A DNA stretch of 64,000 nt, taken from Nitrosococcus wardiae (GTDB lineage: Bacteria; Pseudomonadota; Gammaproteobacteria; Nitrosococcales; Nitrosococcaceae). The notes under the pieces were generated by a model. It was not told the DNA's origin, did no database searches, and was given only the letters and a program-made list of their open reading frames with translations. The stretch's first letter is position 1. Each line of letters begins with the position of its first letter. The stretch lies in the NCBI RefSeq assembly GCF_004421105.1, contig NZ_CP038033.1, positions 1,135,659-1,199,658 on the forward strand. The letters run 5' to 3'. Below are positions 24,079-34,396 of this stretch, piece after piece. The position numbers were made by a program, and so were the translations under genes.

Positions 24079-24580
24079 ATTCCTCAATTTCCCCAACTCG
24101 CTTAAATTATTTTCCCTTTGTGCTCTTTTTGTCTTGGTGAAAATTCGGGTAGAGCGTTTCCCTTATTAGCAGAGATACGGTTAGGTTAGATTGAGAAATT
24201 CAGGTCCTGCTACGTCGATATTCGTGTCTCAATTATTCGGGAAATGCTATAGAGATTTCCGCGCTGTTTCTAAGTAGTTACCTTGGAGGGGATGACGGGC
24301 AAACCGTTGCTATAGGTTCCCTGCGCAGGATGATTAAAGTTTGCTAGCGAGAAGACGACGTTGATGGGAGTCTGGCTGTTGTTTGGAAAATCAGTTGCTG
24401 ATCCCCAATCGATAGATAGGTATAATTGGTTGATTTTTAAATCAATATCACGTTATCAAGGCAGATTTACCTGAATGGGCCATTATCATGGCAAAAACGT
24501 CTGAATTATTGGGCAATATCAACTCCCCCAGTAGGCAATGAAAGTGGAGAGCAAAGAGAAATTCGATTAGTTATGGGTTA
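24079..24580. other. Gene-free region upstream of the retron
   Basis: About 500 bases with no supported gene. It includes an AT-rich stretch with the perfect palindrome TTGATTT-TT-AAATCAA (24430-24445) and a 17-codon frame from about 24489 without a ribosome-binding site. The promoter for the retron RNA should lie near its right end. Composition becomes more AT-rich toward the retron. Confidence 0.4.
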
Positions 24581-24725
24581 TGAGCCTTCCCCTTCTACAT
24601 TTGCCGTTGATACTGCGGTAGAGAAACCAATACCTTCCTTTACGCATCCTCGGCTCCCTGGCTACCGTGAGCTTGACTATGCGATTGCGCGTTCATCTTG
24701 CGCAAGGTGCGAGGGGGAAGGCTCA
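24581..24725 (+). ncRNA. Retron msr-msd non-coding RNA (predicted)
   Basis: Directly before the retron reverse transcriptase, TGAGCCTTCCCC (24581-24592) is perfectly complementary to GGGGAAGGCTCA (24714-24725). Allowing one G-U pair the helix extends to 15 bp (24581-24595 with 24711-24725). A pair of distant complementary arms enclosing ~115 bases just upstream of the RT gene is the a1/a2 signature of retron RNAs. Inside are local hairpins: CTAC/GTAG (24595-24598, 24618-24621), CGCAT/ATGCG (24643-24647, 24679-24683) and TTGCGC/GCGCAA (24685-24690, 24700-24705). Total size (~145 nt) fits known msr-msd RNAs. The branching guanosine and the exact msr/msd border could not be fixed. Confidence 0.72.
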
Positions 24726-24726
24726 C

Positions 24727-26226
24727 TTGTCTAAACTACAATTTCATCTAAATAAACCCCTGGAAGAAGCGGCTGCGCAAATAGTTGGTGCGCAAACAGC
24801 TGATGATATCGCAGAAGTACTAGAAGTCCCGAAAGGCCAATTGCTTCACATTCTTTACTCATATCCTGATGAAAAGAAATACATTTCGTTTGACATAAAA
24901 AAAAAGAATGGAGGATATAGAAATATAAAAGCGGCTAAAGGCGGGTTAAGAGTGCTTCAAAGTAAGCTGGCCCCGCTACTTGCTTCCCATTACAGACTAA
25001 AAAATCCTGTACATGGTTTCGTAAAAGAAAGAAATATCGTTTCTAATGCAACGCAGCACAAGCGAAAACGTTACGTGTTTAATGTTGATCTAAGTGACTT
25101 CTATGGAACTATAAATTTTGGAAGGGTTAGGGGGTTATTTAGGGCAAAGCCGTTTGAAATGGGCGAAAAAGCAGCTTCGGTTGTGGCTCAGATATGTATA
25201 TTTAAGAATAGCTTGCCGCAGGGGGCGGCAACCTCGCCAATAATATCTAATTTCATTGCATCGGAGCTTGATCGTAAACTTTCAAGATTGGCCAGGAGAT
25301 ACAAGCTAACGTACACCCGATATGCTGATGATATTACATTTTCTTCTAACAATAGAAATTTCCCAGAGGGAATTGCGTTTTACGATGGAAATAATCCAAT
25401 AACGAACGATTGTTTTGTTGGACAGGTGCTAGAAGAAACCGTTTCTGGCTGTGGGTTTTCAATTAACCATGAAAAAACACGGCTACAAATCCGCGGCGTT
25501 AGACAAGATGTAACGGGTTTGACGGTTAATGAATTTCCGAATGTACGACGTTCATATATCCGCAACATTCGAGCTTTGCTTCACGCTTGGCGGAAATTTG
25601 GTCCAGATGGTGTGGAGGTAATATACAGAAGAAAATATGCAAAAAATAAGTCGCGCCTTGTAGATACCGAAAGACATTATTTCAAGGAAGCCCTATATGG
25701 CATGTTAGCCTTTCTGAGAATGGTTCGAGGCGAAGATGAGTTGTATCTAAAATTGTGTTTGCAAACTGCCGAGCTAGACAAAGCCCCACCGGAGCTTATC
25801 AAGAGAATGAAGGAACAATATAAGATGTACGATGTGTTTATATCTCACGCGAGCGAAGATAAGATAGATATCGTGAGGCCAATATATGACGCATGTAAGT
25901 CTTTGGGAATATCGGCTTTTCTAGATGAAGAAGAAATAGATTGGGGTGACTCGCTAACAGAAGTACTTAATCATGCGTTAGGAAAAAGTAAACTGTTTCT
26001 GGCGGTGTTATCCAACAATTCAGTTGGCAAAAAATGGCCTAGAAAAGAAATAAATGCGGCCTTAGCGCGTCAAATGGATGGCAAGCAAAAGTTTCTTCCA
26101 CTCGTCGTCGGTTCGCCAGATATGGATATTTTTGGATTAACCAATGATCTTTTGTATGTAAACTGGAAAAATAATCCAGACGAGATTGCGGAGAAATTGA
26201 AATTTATACTTAGTAAATATGCCTAA
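24727..26226 (+). CDS. Retron reverse transcriptase fused to a TIR domain
   Basis: 499 residues from TTG 24727. The RT part carries motif-1-like NVDLSDFYGTINFGRVRG, LPQGAATSPIISN and the catalytic TRYADDITFS (YADD 199-202). It has both retron-specific signatures: NAxxH (NATQH, 107-111) and VTG (262-264). From residue ~368 a TIR domain begins (YDVFISHASEDK) with GDSLTEVL and the catalytic glutamate in KWPRKEINAAL (E441). TIR domains of defence systems cleave NAD+, so the fusion is probably an abortive-infection retron, as in described retron-TIR systems. GTG 24667 and ATG 24679 are in frame but lie inside the predicted RNA; TTG 24727 follows the purine-rich a2 arm (GAGGGGGAAGG). The gene is AT-rich against its core neighbours. 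Confidence 0.93.
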   Translation: MSKLQFHLNKPLEEAAAQIVGAQTADDIAEVLEVPKGQLLHILYSYPDEKKYISFDIKKKNGGYRNIKAAKGGLRVLQSKLAPLLASHYRLKNPVHGFVKERNIVSNATQHKRKRYVFNVDLSDFYGTINFGRVRGLFRAKPFEMGEKAASVVAQICIFKNSLPQGAATSPIISNFIASELDRKLSRLARRYKLTYTRYADDITFSSNNRNFPEGIAFYDGNNPITNDCFVGQVLEETVSGCGFSINHEKTRLQIRGVRQDVTGLTVNEFPNVRRSYIRNIRALLHAWRKFGPDGVEVIYRRKYAKNKSRLVDTERHYFKEALYGMLAFLRMVRGEDELYLKLCLQTAELDKAPPELIKRMKEQYKMYDVFISHASEDKIDIVRPIYDACKSLGISAFLDEEEIDWGDSLTEVLNHALGKSKLFLAVLSNNSVGKKWPRKEINAALARQMDGKQKFLPLVVGSPDMDIFGLTNDLLYVNWKNNPDEIAEKLKFILSKYA

Positions 26227-26274
26227 CGATGACGTATATTTAGCATAGTTAGGTCAGCTCTTGTGAATGAAAAT

Positions 26275-26472
26275 AGGGGGAGGCCTTTCCGAAAAACGAG
26301 CTCAGGTCTTGTATAATGCCTTTTTGTCTGGTTCATGTTAATCTTCTATTTACAGATCGGTTTTCATGATTTTTCTATTAGGCTAATTATCAAGATTTCA
26401 GGAATGCACGGCGCGAGACCTAACTCCATGGGTGGGGTGCAGAAATGCATGATACCAGGCCTGACCCCGTAA
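26275..26472. repeat. REP-like sequences between retron and RelA/SpoT gene
   Basis: The 300-base gap holds no gene but several copies of a REP-like core: AGGCCTTTCC near 26281, CTCAGGTCTTG (26301-26311) and, inverted, CCAGGCCTGACCCC near 26456-26469. The outer copies face each other across ~190 bases, as in a REP doublet. The same core flanks the RAYT transposase at 33.4 and 34.4 kb. Confidence 0.55.
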
Positions 26473-26526
26473 CTCCTGGCCAACTCCCCGATTACATTCT
26501 CTCCAGTTGTTATTGATAAAGGCTAG

Positions 26527-27657
26527 ATGAAAGAAAAATACTCGGGAAAAGAGATTATTAAAGCTGGTGAGATGTTTCTCTCCGATAACATATTCGATGA
26601 CATAGATAAGTTCAACAAAGCTATGGATGTACTTTCCTACTGGCGTTTTCAGCACGAATATCCACTAGAGAAAGCACTTTCCATATTAAAAGAAGAAGCT
26701 GGCAACCGTGACAAAGCTGCAATTTTTGCAAAGCGGTTAAAACGTTATGTCTCTATCGTCGCAAAACTGCGACGTTTTCCGAAGATGAAGTTGAAGAATA
26801 TGCAGGATATTGGCGGGTGCAGGGCCATTGTTTCTAATACAAAGAAGCTTTATCAAATAGTTCGGGAGTTGAGAAGACGTCCAGAGTTTAGAAATCAATT
26901 AGGAAAAATTCGATATAAGGACTACATAAAAAAACCCAAAGACGATGGATATAGAGGTTACCACTTAATAGGTAGCTTTGAAGATCAAAGGGGTGATCAC
27001 AAACTAATAGAGATTCAACTAAGGACGACGATACAACATGATTGGGCAACAGCCCTGGAAATAGTCGATCTGTTCACGGGGCAGGCACTAAAGTCAAGCC
27101 AGGGTGAGCAAGACTGGAAGGATTTTTTCAAGCTAGTTTCTGAGCATTTTGCATTAATGGATGAAATTCATTTATTTAACACTAAAAAATATGAAGAACA
27201 ACTAAATGCTTATAAATCAAAAATAGAAAAAAAAACAAAATTCGCAGAAACACGCTTTGAAATCCAGGCCTATGAATCATCCTTAGATGTCGTAAAAAAT
27301 CTCGAAGCTTTTGCTCATTCACTTAAAGCTGCAGACGAGCACATTTCTCAAAGAAAAGTTGAAGGATACGTGTTGCTCAAAGTAGATACCCGGAAGGCGG
27401 AAGTGTCCTCAACGTTATTTGATGATACGGAGAACGAAGAGGCGGAGAAAATGTACCTAGAGTATGAAAAGGAAACAGCAGAAAATAAGGATATAGTTGT
27501 TGCATTAGTATCTACAACTGCGGTAGGAGGTATTAAAGAGGCTTATCCGAACTATTTTGCAGATTCCACTGATTTTTTAAAATATCTCATGCTTATAATT
27601 AAATCTTCGATAAGGCCCAACTTATTTCGTCGAATTTTGAATGAATCAGGGTTATGA
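26527..27657 (+). CDS. RelA/SpoT-type (p)ppGpp synthetase-domain protein
   Basis: 376-residue stand-alone synthetase-domain protein with no hydrolase (HD) domain. Synthetase signatures are intact: KRLKRYVSIVAKL (69-81, nucleotide-binding Arg/Lys and Ser), MQDIGGCRAIV with the Mg-binding Asp94, KDYIKKPKDDGYRGYH (131-146), EIQLRT (162-167) and QHDWA. The C-terminal ~200 residues are helical and charged, ending in KEAYPNYFADSTDFL. It would transfer pyrophosphate from ATP to GDP/GTP or another acceptor. Stand-alone relatives include alarmone synthetases and toxic nucleotide or tRNA modifiers used in phage defence; which applies cannot be told. AT-rich, with AAAGG before ATG 26527, it lies downstream of the retron between REP-like sequences. 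Confidence 0.85.
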   Translation: MKEKYSGKEIIKAGEMFLSDNIFDDIDKFNKAMDVLSYWRFQHEYPLEKALSILKEEAGNRDKAAIFAKRLKRYVSIVAKLRRFPKMKLKNMQDIGGCRAIVSNTKKLYQIVRELRRRPEFRNQLGKIRYKDYIKKPKDDGYRGYHLIGSFEDQRGDHKLIEIQLRTTIQHDWATALEIVDLFTGQALKSSQGEQDWKDFFKLVSEHFALMDEIHLFNTKKYEEQLNAYKSKIEKKTKFAETRFEIQAYESSLDVVKNLEAFAHSLKAADEHISQRKVEGYVLLKVDTRKAEVSSTLFDDTENEEAEKMYLEYEKETAENKDIVVALVSTTAVGGIKEAYPNYFADSTDFLKYLMLIIKSSIRPNLFRRILNESGL

Positions 27658-27714
27658 GTGTAACAAGTTAATCAACTTCGCGCCTAATCAAAGTGGGGTC
27701 TACCATCGAAAACA

Positions 27715-27885
27715 GGGTCAGGCCTTTCTCTATGCTATTTACCAATTCGCGATAATATTTGATTTGTGGTCCGCTTTTTGTGTAAGAAAATCAACGTATA
27801 CTTTTTGCCTTCACTATTCGTCTATCCGGCTGATTACTAAAAGATCGCAGATGCGTATTAGGCAACACCTGATCCCATTGGATGC
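27715..27885 (+). repeat. ~170-bp dispersed repeat, copy A
   Basis: Starts GGGTCAGGCCTTTC and ends CACCTGATCCCATTGGATGC. It matches copy B (28730-28898) over its full length at roughly 80% by eye. The shared blocks include TTTGATTTRTGGTC, GTGTAAGAAAATCAACG, GATCGCAGATRCGTATTA and the 20-base end block. The two copies are direct repeats on either side of higBA. Its REP-like left end belongs to the same family as the RAYT-flanking sequences. The remaining gap to higB (27886-28073) shows no gene. Confidence 0.75.
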
Positions 27886-28073
27886 ATAACCATGCCTGGT
27901 GGTCACCAACACCAACTAATGGTCCTTGATGACAAGGTTTACCCGCCGGTCGGTCGGTGCATCTACGGCGGCCGAACAGATGGGCTGACCAAGTAAATTA
28001 TTCGCGCCGCAAAGCCCCGTCATCCTTAAGCGCGACTCATCGTCCACGTTATGCAGCTCAACCTACCCACTTC

Positions 28074-28102
28074 TTGACATGCGTCACGTGACAGAATACG
28101 CT
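28074..28102 (+). promoter_or_regulatory. higBA promoter with palindromic operator
   Basis: TTGACA (28074-28079) and TACGCT (28097-28102) are separated by 17 bases, a good sigma-70 pair. The spacer contains the perfect palindrome GTCACGTGAC (28083-28092), a likely binding site for the HigA antitoxin, which usually represses its own operon. The expected transcription start falls at or next to the higB ATG (28110), implying a leaderless or nearly leaderless mRNA. Confidence 0.65.
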
Positions 28103-28109
28103 TCCTTGT

Positions 28110-28391
28110 ATGATCAAGACCTTCGCAGATAAGCGCACCCAAGAGCTTTTTTGCAAAGGAGTTTCAAAGAAATTCCCTGCAGATGCTGCTCCAAGGGCAG
28201 CCCGTAAACTTGAATATGTTCATTTGGCGGAACAACTGGGCGATTTGAAAGTTCCGCCTGGTAATCGGCTTCACACGCTTTCTGGCGATCGGAAGGGGCA
28301 GCATGCCATATCAATCAATGCTCAATGGCGTATCTGCTTTCGTTTTGAAAACGGTGACGCATACGATGTTGAAGTGTGCGGCTATCATTGA
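28110..28391 (+). CDS. higB: HigB-type toxin (RelE/ParE superfamily)
   Basis: 93-residue toxin, probably a ribosome-dependent mRNA endonuclease. It begins MIKTFADKRTQELF and contains LEYVHLAEQLGDLKVPPGNRLHTLSGDRKGQ and ISINAQWRICFRFENGDAYDVEVCGYH, the conserved HigB C-terminal half. The toxin gene precedes the antitoxin, the HigBA order, with a 15-base gap to the preferred higA start. No ribosome-binding sequence is visible before ATG 28110, in line with the promoter position. Confidence 0.93.
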   Translation: MIKTFADKRTQELFCKGVSKKFPADAAPRAARKLEYVHLAEQLGDLKVPPGNRLHTLSGDRKGQHAISINAQWRICFRFENGDAYDVEVCGYH

Positions 28392-28406
28392 AATGAGGTG
28401 ACAACT

Positions 28407-28721
28407 ATGGCTATTCCCAACACTACTGGTATGCAACGCAAACCGACTCATCCGGGGGAAATGCTGCGGGAAGATTTTATTCCAGACTATGGGTTGACTG
28501 TAGCGGGTTTGGCCGAAGCGCTCGGTGTATCACGCCAGTCCGTCAATGAACTACTACGTGAACGGCGGGCTGTCAGTCCGGAAATGGCCCTACGGCTTGG
28601 TCGTCTGTTTGGTAACTCTCCAGAGTTTTGGTTGAATGCGCAGCGCGCAATCGATCTGTGGGCGGCAGCTAAGTCAGTTAAAGACGAGATTGCCCGAATC
28701 AAGCCATTGGACGCTGCATAA
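28407..28721 (+). CDS. higA: HigA-type antitoxin (HTH, XRE family)
   Basis: 104-residue antitoxin that binds HigB and represses the operon. A helix-turn-helix is clear: PTHPGEMLREDFIPDYGLTV, then LAEALGVSRQSVNELLRER and ALRLGRLFGNSPEFWLNAQ, typical of HigA/VapI. The frame is open from GTG 28398, but ATG 28407 has GAGGTG eight bases upstream and is preferred. Copy B of the flanking repeat begins nine bases after the stop codon. Confidence 0.93.
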   Translation: MAIPNTTGMQRKPTHPGEMLREDFIPDYGLTVAGLAEALGVSRQSVNELLRERRAVSPEMALRLGRLFGNSPEFWLNAQRAIDLWAAAKSVKDEIARIKPLDAA

Positions 28722-28729
28722 TGGGCAAG

Positions 28730-28917
28730 GGGCCAGGCCTTTCCTATTGCTATTTACCGATGCACAATAATATTTGATTTATGGTCTATTTTTGGTGTAA
28801 GAAAATCAACGCACATTTTGTGTTTTCTTTATTTGCATATCTGGTCTATTACTAAGATCGCAGATACGTATTAAGCAACACCTGATCCCATTGGATGCTA
28901 ATTAAGACCTGACCCTA
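28730..28917 (+). repeat. ~170-bp dispersed repeat, copy B, with inverted REP-like ends
   Basis: Copy of the 27715-27885 repeat. Its left end GGGCCAGGCCTT and a right-end AAGACCTGACCC (about 28905-28916) are inverted matches at 10 of 12 positions, so this copy has the shape of a REPIN or small MITE-like unit: two REP sequences facing each other around a unique middle. No open frame of note lies inside. Confidence 0.7.
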
Positions 28918-28948
28918 TTGGTACAGCCAGAAAAGGAGATTACTGTAA

Positions 28949-33379: not shown

Positions 33380-34396
33380 GGGTCAGGTCTTGTTGGCTGC
33401 TTTTTGTTAAATTTTGTGGTAATGTTTGTCTTATGGCTCGTCCTTTACGTATTGAATTTTCTGGTGCGCTCTATCATGTGACCTCCCGGGGTGACAGGAA
33501 GGAAGATATCTATCAGGATGATGCTGATCGAAAAATATATCTTGGTGTCCTGGGGGAGGTATGTGAGCGGTTCAATTGGGTCCTGCATGCCTATTGCTTG
33601 ATGGATAACCATTATCACCTCTTGGTCGAGACGCCCGATGGCAACCTGGCCAAGGGGATGCGCCACCTTAACGGTGTCTACACTCAGCGCTTTAATGCCA
33701 GGCACAAACGGGTAGGGCATGTTTTTCAGGGGCGCTATAAAGCCATTCTTGTGCAAAAAAAAGCTTATTTATTAGAACTGGCGCGCTACATCGTGCTTAA
33801 TCCCGTTCGTGCTCGGAAGGCGCGAAGCGCAAAGGACTGGCCCTGGAGCAGTTATCGGGCTACTGCAGGGCTGGGAAAAGGGCCGATGTGGCTGCACAGT
33901 AAGTGGATATTATCAGCTTTTTCCCGGCGCAAGGGAGAGGCGATAAAACGTTACCGGGCTTTTGTTTCCGAGGGGAAGAATCAACCCAGTCCCTGGGAGC
34001 AACTTAAGAATCAAATCTATTTAGGGTCGGCGTCCTTTGTGGAGAAGATGCAGCGGCAGCTGGACTCTGAACAGGATTTGAGCGAAATCCCCTCAGCCCA
34101 AAGACGGCCGGTGGCGAAACCCTTAGAGTACTTTTCCAAAAAGTATCATGATAGGGATACCGCTATTGTGCAGGCATACGCTAGTGGTGGGTACAGTATG
34201 AAGGAAATTGGTGCACACTTTGGCCTTCACTATTCGCGTATTAGTCGCATCATCAGGGCTGCCGATAAAACATAATTTTGGGTATTTGCTACTTGTGGGA
34301 AAGATAGCTTATCTTTGAACTTAAATTGCCGTCTGTGCATACCTGCGGATTTTAGGTTATCATGTGTAGTAAAGCACAAATCAAGACTTGACCCCT
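33380..34396 (+). mobile_element. RAYT transposase unit bounded by inverted REP sequences
   Basis: GGGTCAGGTCTTG (33380-33392) lies 40 bases before the RAYT start. The reverse complement of TCAAGACTTGACCCC (34381-34395) downstream gives the same sequence with one mismatch. The unit has replaced the 3' end of the FkbM gene on the left and the 3' end of the photolyase gene on the right. Related REP cores occur at 26.3, 26.46, 27.7, 28.73 and 28.9 kb. Confidence 0.75.
33433..34275 (+). CDS. REP-associated tyrosine transposase (RAYT, Y1/HUH family)
   Basis: 280-residue single-strand DNA transposase of the IS200-like group tamed by REP elements. It starts MARPLRIEFSGALYHVTSRG, the RAYT N-terminus. 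The HUH motif is HYH at 60-62 (MDNHYHLLVE) and the catalytic tyrosine is Y119 in ELARYIVLNPVRA; WPWSSYRATAG follows. The C-terminal ~60 residues add a helix-turn-helix (SMKEIGAHFGLHYSRISRII), as in the larger RAYT subgroup. The gene is full-length and apparently intact. Confidence 0.92.
   Translation: MARPLRIEFSGALYHVTSRGDRKEDIYQDDADRKIYLGVLGEVCERFNWVLHAYCLMDNHYHLLVETPDGNLAKGMRHLNGVYTQRFNARHKRVGHVFQGRYKAILVQKKAYLLELARYIVLNPVRARKARSAKDWPWSSYRATAGLGKGPMWLHSKWILSAFSRRKGEAIKRYRAFVSEGKNQPSPWEQLKNQIYLGSASFVEKMQRQLDSEQDLSEIPSAQRRPVAKPLEYFSKKYHDRDTAIVQAYASGGYSMKEIGAHFGLHYSRISRIIRAADKT

Follow-up and report, generated by a model that had tools for sequence, protein, structure and literature searches.

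A type XII (RT-TIR) retron in Nitrosococcus wardiae and the conserved, covarying RNA upstream of its gene

Introduction

Does the Nitrosococcus wardiae chromosome carry a retron in which the reverse transcriptase (RT) is fused to a TIR domain and, if so, which RNA accompanies the enzyme? The question is raised by positions 24581-26226 of the window, by which we mean the whole 64,000-nucleotide stretch of DNA that was analysed. An earlier note, made from the letters of the window, had proposed that this locus is an anti-phage RT-TIR retron with a recognisable RNA directly upstream of the gene. According to a commentary that attributes the finding to Gao et al. 2020, Retron-TIR is counted among the defence retrons, and defence requires both the synthesis and the structure of msDNA (PMC7699616).

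Results

The window encodes an RT-TIR fusion of a named family

An uninterrupted open reading frame on the + strand runs to 26226 from either GTG 24667 or TTG 24727; upstream of the latter, the in-frame start codons are that GTG, ATG 24679 and two further TTG codons. We chose TTG 24727 as the likely start because a Shine-Dalgarno match accompanies it and the family models begin there. The protein features are as follows.

24727-26226, + strand: RT-TIR fusion protein, 499 aa from the likely TTG (start inferred; PADLOC, NCBIfam, pLDDT 89.7)
24895-25491, + strand: reverse transcriptase domain, RVT_1 (Pfam, converted from residues 77-275)
25834-26184, + strand: TIR domain, TIR_2 (Pfam, residues 390-506), holding the WxxxE glutamate E441 at 26047-26049

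The motifs on which the RT had been recognised in the earlier note are all located in this frame: numbered from the TTG, NAxxH is found at residues 107-111 (25045-25059), YADD at residues 199-202 (25321-25332) and VTG at residues 262-264 (25510-25518). PADLOC and NCBIfam agree. The former matches the protein to RT-TIR_XII (E 3.6e-166) and classes such a fusion as a single-gene system, and the latter matches it to NF042941 (Retron_TIR_antiphage) at 664.2 bits, above the curated cut-off of 600. This family assignment supports the proposed RT-TIR retron identity, and we regard 24581-26226 as a confirmed type XII (RT-TIR) retron. The claim that the copy is undescribed was overstated, in that PADLOC and NCBIfam already name the family.

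The proposed C-terminal TIR domain with a catalytic glutamate was also recovered. Across 40 aligned RT-TIR proteins, a set that includes one locus without a TIR label in the RT tree (L125), E441 is invariant, W437 is nearly so, and the RT motifs are conserved; E441 aligns with the glutamate of the WTNYE motif of AbTIR, a NAD+ hydrolase of solved structure. An AlphaFold2 model generated from the 40-protein alignment (mean pLDDT 89.7, pTM 0.74) has retron Eco2/Ec67 as its best match among solved structures (E 2.6e-31), and Ec67 is again best when solved structures are searched by sequence (E 3.9e-52). For the TIR part, two solved chains match near 1e-18, and NAD(+) hydrolase AbTIR is one of the two. 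The TIR domain of the fusion is thus closely similar to TIRs known to cleave NAD+.

A quick RT tree places 41 of the 42 TIR-labelled rows in a single clade (support 88) nested in the retron RTs. The sole TIR-labelled row outside it, L124 from a member of the Phycisphaerales, also has an a2 arm (see below) without GAGGG and perhaps represents a separate gain of the TIR domain. Taken as a whole, the window locus is a real and apparently intact member of a known retron type, and the copy and its host appear to be new.

A conserved, covarying RNA lies in front of the gene

The RNA features of the window, all upstream of the TTG, are as follows.

24581-24595, + strand: a1 arm of the retron RNA (inverted repeat; covariation in alignments A6 and A7)
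24600-24622, + strand: msr stem-loop with core motif GCCGTTGATACTGCGGT at 24603-24619, stem 24600-24607 with 24615-24622 (fold and covariation)
24643-24705, + strand: putative msd region with predicted hairpins 24643-24683 and 24685-24705 (MFE structure)
24711-24725, + strand: a2 arm, including the Shine-Dalgarno-like GAGGGGGAAGG of the RT gene (inverted repeat; covariation)

The arms agree with the 15-bp a1/a2 helix of the earlier note, which had counted one G-U pair and about 115 enclosed bases: they are 15 nt long and 93% complementary, with 14 Watson-Crick pairs and one G-U, and enclose 115 nt. The RNA from 24570 to 24735 folds at -63.5 kcal/mol, compared with a shuffled mean of -46.7 (z -3.86; 0 of 200 dinucleotide shuffles as good), and the top stem of the 340-nt upstream stretch scores 37.5, compared with a maximum of 28.5 over 20 shuffles. 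A pattern describing the msr motif of the family matches the window once and none of 100 shuffles. In a scan upstream of the RNA for promoter-like sites, none was seen on the + strand and there was no excess over shuffles.

To gather relatives, a nine-row RT-TIR alignment (A4) was used as query against species genomes and IMG/VR; the homologues were drawn from the best 80 of 584 relatives in the genome scan and the best 80 of 83 in the viral scan. A scan of viral contigs with a single protein found no relative. The upstream stem search covered 42 loci, including the window and an E. coli plasmid copy; three RT-TIR loci lay outside it (L056, a near copy of L055; L130, cut at a contig end; and L186). 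An a1/a2 pair was assigned to 39 of the 42, L055 being dropped because its RNA runs past the contig end and L108 and L121 because the wrong stem had been picked. Between the arms of these 39 pairs lie 80-130 nt. The a2 arm starts with GAGG in 25 of the 39 and in most others starts with or soon reaches GGG, with L124 and L125 as misfits. In 26 of 41 loci the stem score exceeded that of every one of 20 shuffles. Several enteric-type loci had been searched over too short a stretch, since their N-terminal extension places the RNA at a greater distance from the matched part of the protein.

With the arms set in register, 365 of 372 cells pair across 31 distinct arm pairs, compared with 61.2% for mismatched partners, and 0 of 2000 column shuffles did as well; the figure is biased upward because the arms had been selected for complementarity. 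We therefore place more weight on a MAFFT alignment of 36 RNAs (A6), which leaves out L124 and L125, whose a2 is of neither the GAGGG nor the GGG type, as well as L061 (a near copy of L059), and on the msr stem, which played no part in any selection of rows or arms. When the structure is read from the window alone, 81.7% of cells in A6 pair, compared with 63.8% after shuffling and at most 55.7% when the structure is slid along the alignment, and the covariation score is 0.502, compared with 0.223 after shuffling and 0.222 for the best slid version. Two-sided changes occur in 13 of the 15 a1/a2 pairs and 7 of the 8 msr pairs. Two of the five measures beat the shuffles weakly, namely the number of two-sided pairs (20 vs 17.3; 16 of 500 shuffles as high) and of further pair types (56 vs 52.1; 57 of 500 as high). 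Among 11 closer RNAs (A7), 97.6% of cells pair and the score is 0.371, compared with 0.205. RNAalifold, run by itself on the 36 rows of A6, found four msr pairs and missed a1/a2, which it recovered on 13 closer rows. The putative msd part differs in length and sequence between homologues.

These data show that the RNA in front of the RT-TIR gene is conserved and covarying, in the order a1, msr stem-loop, variable part, a2. The retron-like shape seen in the earlier note is borne out, a1 and a2 being the ends of this conserved RNA, and the compensatory changes in the arms of homologues on which that note had staked its claim are present in both A6 and A7, so that the claim survived. Three features went unmentioned in that note: the msr stem-loop with its covariation, the probable ribosome-binding site in a2, and the missing guanosine after a1.

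A covariance model (R1) built from A7 was run over 100 sources, of which 44 are RT-TIR (counting L125) and 11 of these are in the model. Among the 33 held-out RT-TIR sources, strong matches were obtained in L108 (E 1.9e-24) and L121 (4.4e-22) and weak ones in L185, L060, L126, L128 and L118 (E 0.0007 to 0.75), while the remaining 26, more distant members, were missed. Weak matches were also found in eleven non-TIR relatives, together with one on the reverse strand of L134. The single match in the window's own genome is the window locus itself.

Two relatives show unusual arrangements. In L108, GC-rich repeats at 500-780 follow the retron RNA (388-499) and precede the RT-TIR gene, and have apparently driven the two apart. 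In the E. coli plasmid copy L051 (2794-4423), the RT and TIR parts occupy two overlapping frames and the RNA arms are intact.

Is the RNA already catalogued?

The earlier note had proposed a covariance-model search against retron RNA families. Run with Rfam release 15, this gave no retron match: there was no match in the window, nor at the retron RNA of 15 homologous loci, the single sub-threshold match (14.5 bits) being to an unrelated family. PADLOC is described as including msr-msd covariance models (PMC9252829). An open-licence literature search, covering titles and the starts of abstracts, returned no paper on this RNA, which does not show it to be undescribed; it may well be covered already by Mestre 2020 or by PADLOC's RNA models. 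What we add is an RNA model for RT-TIR retrons that is backed by covariation and has no counterpart in Rfam release 15, and one compact copy for study. With such a model, the msDNA of the RT-TIR type can be sought directly.

No guanosine directly after a1 in the aligned RT-TIR RNAs

A conserved branching guanosine is described as adjacent to the inverted repeats of retrons (PMC8989520), and the Eco2 cDNA is reported to start at rG15, after a1 and before four bases and the stem-loop (PMC12405507). In A6, columns 16-19 and 21 have G in none of the 36 RT-TIR RNAs; elsewhere in the linker, G occurs at column 20 in 9 rows and at column 22 in 11. Some G is present within the seven-nucleotide linker in 30 of the 36 RNAs, and the window linker, UACAUUU, has none. 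The window RNA may branch at another nucleotide such as G24603.

For comparison we took the base after a1 at 34 non-TIR loci. Seventeen of these score best as RT-Toprim I-C (models PDLC02963/02966), and in 16 of the 17 the base is G, the exception being L070, where the stem finder ran past the G. Just three of the other 17 (L063, L158 and L181) have G there, so its lack is not special to RT-TIR retrons. The explanation is either priming of the cDNA by another nucleotide, a shift of the site between clades, or an alignment out of register. The question raised is which nucleotide primes the cDNA when a1 is followed by no guanosine.

The a2 arm overlaps the likely translation start in part of the family

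In nine relatives the first in-frame start codon of the RT gene is an ATG inside a2, at +10 from its start.

L106, L107, L109, L111, L113, L114, L116, L134 and L145: ATG at +10 inside a2, its Shine-Dalgarno site being the GAGGG with which a2 opens

In the window, the last base of a2 is 24725 and the TTG follows at 24727 (+16 from the a2 start). Altogether, a start codon at +10 to +17 that is accompanied by a Shine-Dalgarno-like match occurs in 16 of 40 loci. The overlap is not shared by the enteric-type, Pseudomonas and Neiella members, and so belongs to part of the RT-TIR family.

With the likely ribosome-binding site inside a2, a1/a2 pairing should hide it. In fold predictions, the mean unpaired probability from a2 to the start codon of the window is 0.11 with a1, compared with 0.45 without it, and the same stretch is predicted to be more paired with a1 than without in all 13 RNAs tested. 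This raises the question of whether folding of the retron RNA regulates synthesis of its own fused toxin and, if a2 forms part of the ribosome-binding site, engineered changes to a1/a2 would also alter RT expression. Specialists may be surprised by two of these findings, the overlap and the missing guanosine.

The retron occupies a small variable site

The genome is a single contig of 4.02 Mb and carries an ammonia/methane monooxygenase (AMO) family gene. The family cut-off is passed in this genome only, both among 59 genomes (its own and its nearest relatives) and among 369 genomes of the class. In a sister genome (G001) both flanks are kept (92% and 95% identical) and other genes replace 24262-28928; one of these resembles a transposase gene. 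Directly downstream of the retron, 26527-27657 (+) encodes a RelA/SpoT-domain protein that matches the PADLOC candidate defence gene PDC-S33 (348 bits) and has no match in three sister genomes. At 28110-28721 (+), a HigB-like toxin gene is followed by an HTH gene, the two being a probable toxin-antitoxin pair. A variable site with candidate defence neighbours leads us to read the surroundings as a defence islet, which is what the small site looks like. Further downstream, the open reading frame at 33433-34275 (+) resembles a REP-associated (Y1-type) transposase gene.

The same genome encodes a second retron RT (G000:C1:3368395-3369387; L002/L017), which PADLOC labels RT-Protease type XI (596 bits). 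It adjoins an open reading frame that has letters in common with another, found in G001 at the variable site.

Discussion

Our preferred reading, to which we give a probability of roughly three in four, is that the locus is an intact chromosomal type XII (RT-TIR) retron in which an msDNA-RT complex restrains the TIR domain until phage infection releases it to cleave NAD+. The RT would bind the folded RNA and copy its msd part into msDNA, and the resulting particle would keep the TIR domain of the fusion in an inactive state. Once a phage function degraded, modified or stripped the msDNA, the TIR domains would be free to assemble and would cleave NAD+, so that the infected cell stops; nucleases and single-strand binding proteins, as reported for Eco2 and Eco8, are the first candidates for the trigger. 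Restraint by msDNA-RT and release by phage damage are taken for the window copy by analogy with Eco2, whose RT-fused effector is described as autoinhibited while it is part of the msDNA complex, a phage nuclease being its probable means of release (PMC12405507). Since a2 contains the likely ribosome-binding site, RNA folded as a retron would also be poorly translated, and each transcript would thus serve as either template or message.

A bolder proposal has two parts: that RT-TIR retrons, at least those like the window's and the enteric ones, no longer possess a branching guanosine after a1 and start their cDNA from another nucleotide, and that in part of the family a1/a2 has also become a translational switch, so that the folded RNA shuts off the toxin gene next to it in cis. 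We put this forward tentatively and think it rather doubtful that both parts hold.

Could the conserved RNA instead be mainly a translational leader of the RT-TIR enzyme, with no classical branched msDNA and with the RT making some other DNA? Some defence RTs do make DNA other than classical branched msDNA, and such a leader would fit the Shine-Dalgarno-like match in a2 at 16 of 40 loci, the predicted occlusion by a1 in 13 of 13 RNAs and the lack of a G directly after a1 in all 36. However, the RT is nested within retron RTs, and RT-Toprim (I-C) and RT-protease (XI) retrons likewise have the layout of a1, msr stem-loop and a2 in front of their genes. Moreover, a plain leader needs no covarying msr stem, and the enteric-type RNA is conserved although its start codon lies beyond a2. 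We therefore consider a pure leader unlikely.

A different objection concerns the effector of the retron. The TIR domain could make a signal nucleotide for a separate effector, as in Thoeris, rather than kill by depleting NAD+; AbTIR, which makes a cyclic ADP-ribose variant, is among the nearest solved TIRs. Against this, the few neighbours scanned (three with PADLOC, five with Pfam) included no recognisable Thoeris-type effector, and PADLOC classes the fusion as a single-gene system. Signalling of this kind appears quite improbable. That the locus is a decaying remnant, as a family match above the cut-off in only one of 59 genomes and the frame-split plasmid copy L051 might hint, is highly improbable and was rejected, given the uninterrupted frame, the intact catalytic motifs and a helix with 14 Watson-Crick pairs and one G-U.

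Comparison with known retrons

The preferred reading, a type XII retron with an msDNA-restrained TIR effector, can be set against several known systems. The enteric-type copies of Retron-TIR type XII (L053, L054, L055, L057 and L062) have the fusion, the motifs and the RNA layout (a1, msr stem-loop, variable part, a2) in common with the window. Unlike the window, they carry an N-terminal extension and have start codons beyond a2; they are 40-45% identical to the window protein and fall in a different part of the RT tree. With L055 as query, at least 80% of its length was covered in 82 of 5,426 E. coli genomes, and the 12 matches listed are annotated as TIR domain-containing anti-phage reverse transcriptase.

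Eco2/Ec67 (type I-C, RT-Toprim) resembles the window in being an RT-effector fusion, in having one msr stem-loop after a short linker and in giving the best fold match, but its effector is a Toprim RNase rather than a TIR domain and its branch guanosine directly follows a1. The type XI (RT-protease) copy in the window's own genome has an RT that is 44% identical to that of the window over the matched part, whereas true type XI proteins carry a C-terminal protease domain. Finally, four cyanobacterial loci (L132, L133, L135 and L137), whose RTs score best as type XI and which lack the protease part, share the msr loop GUUGAUCCUGC with the window; unlike the window linker, their RNAs retain a G before AUUU.
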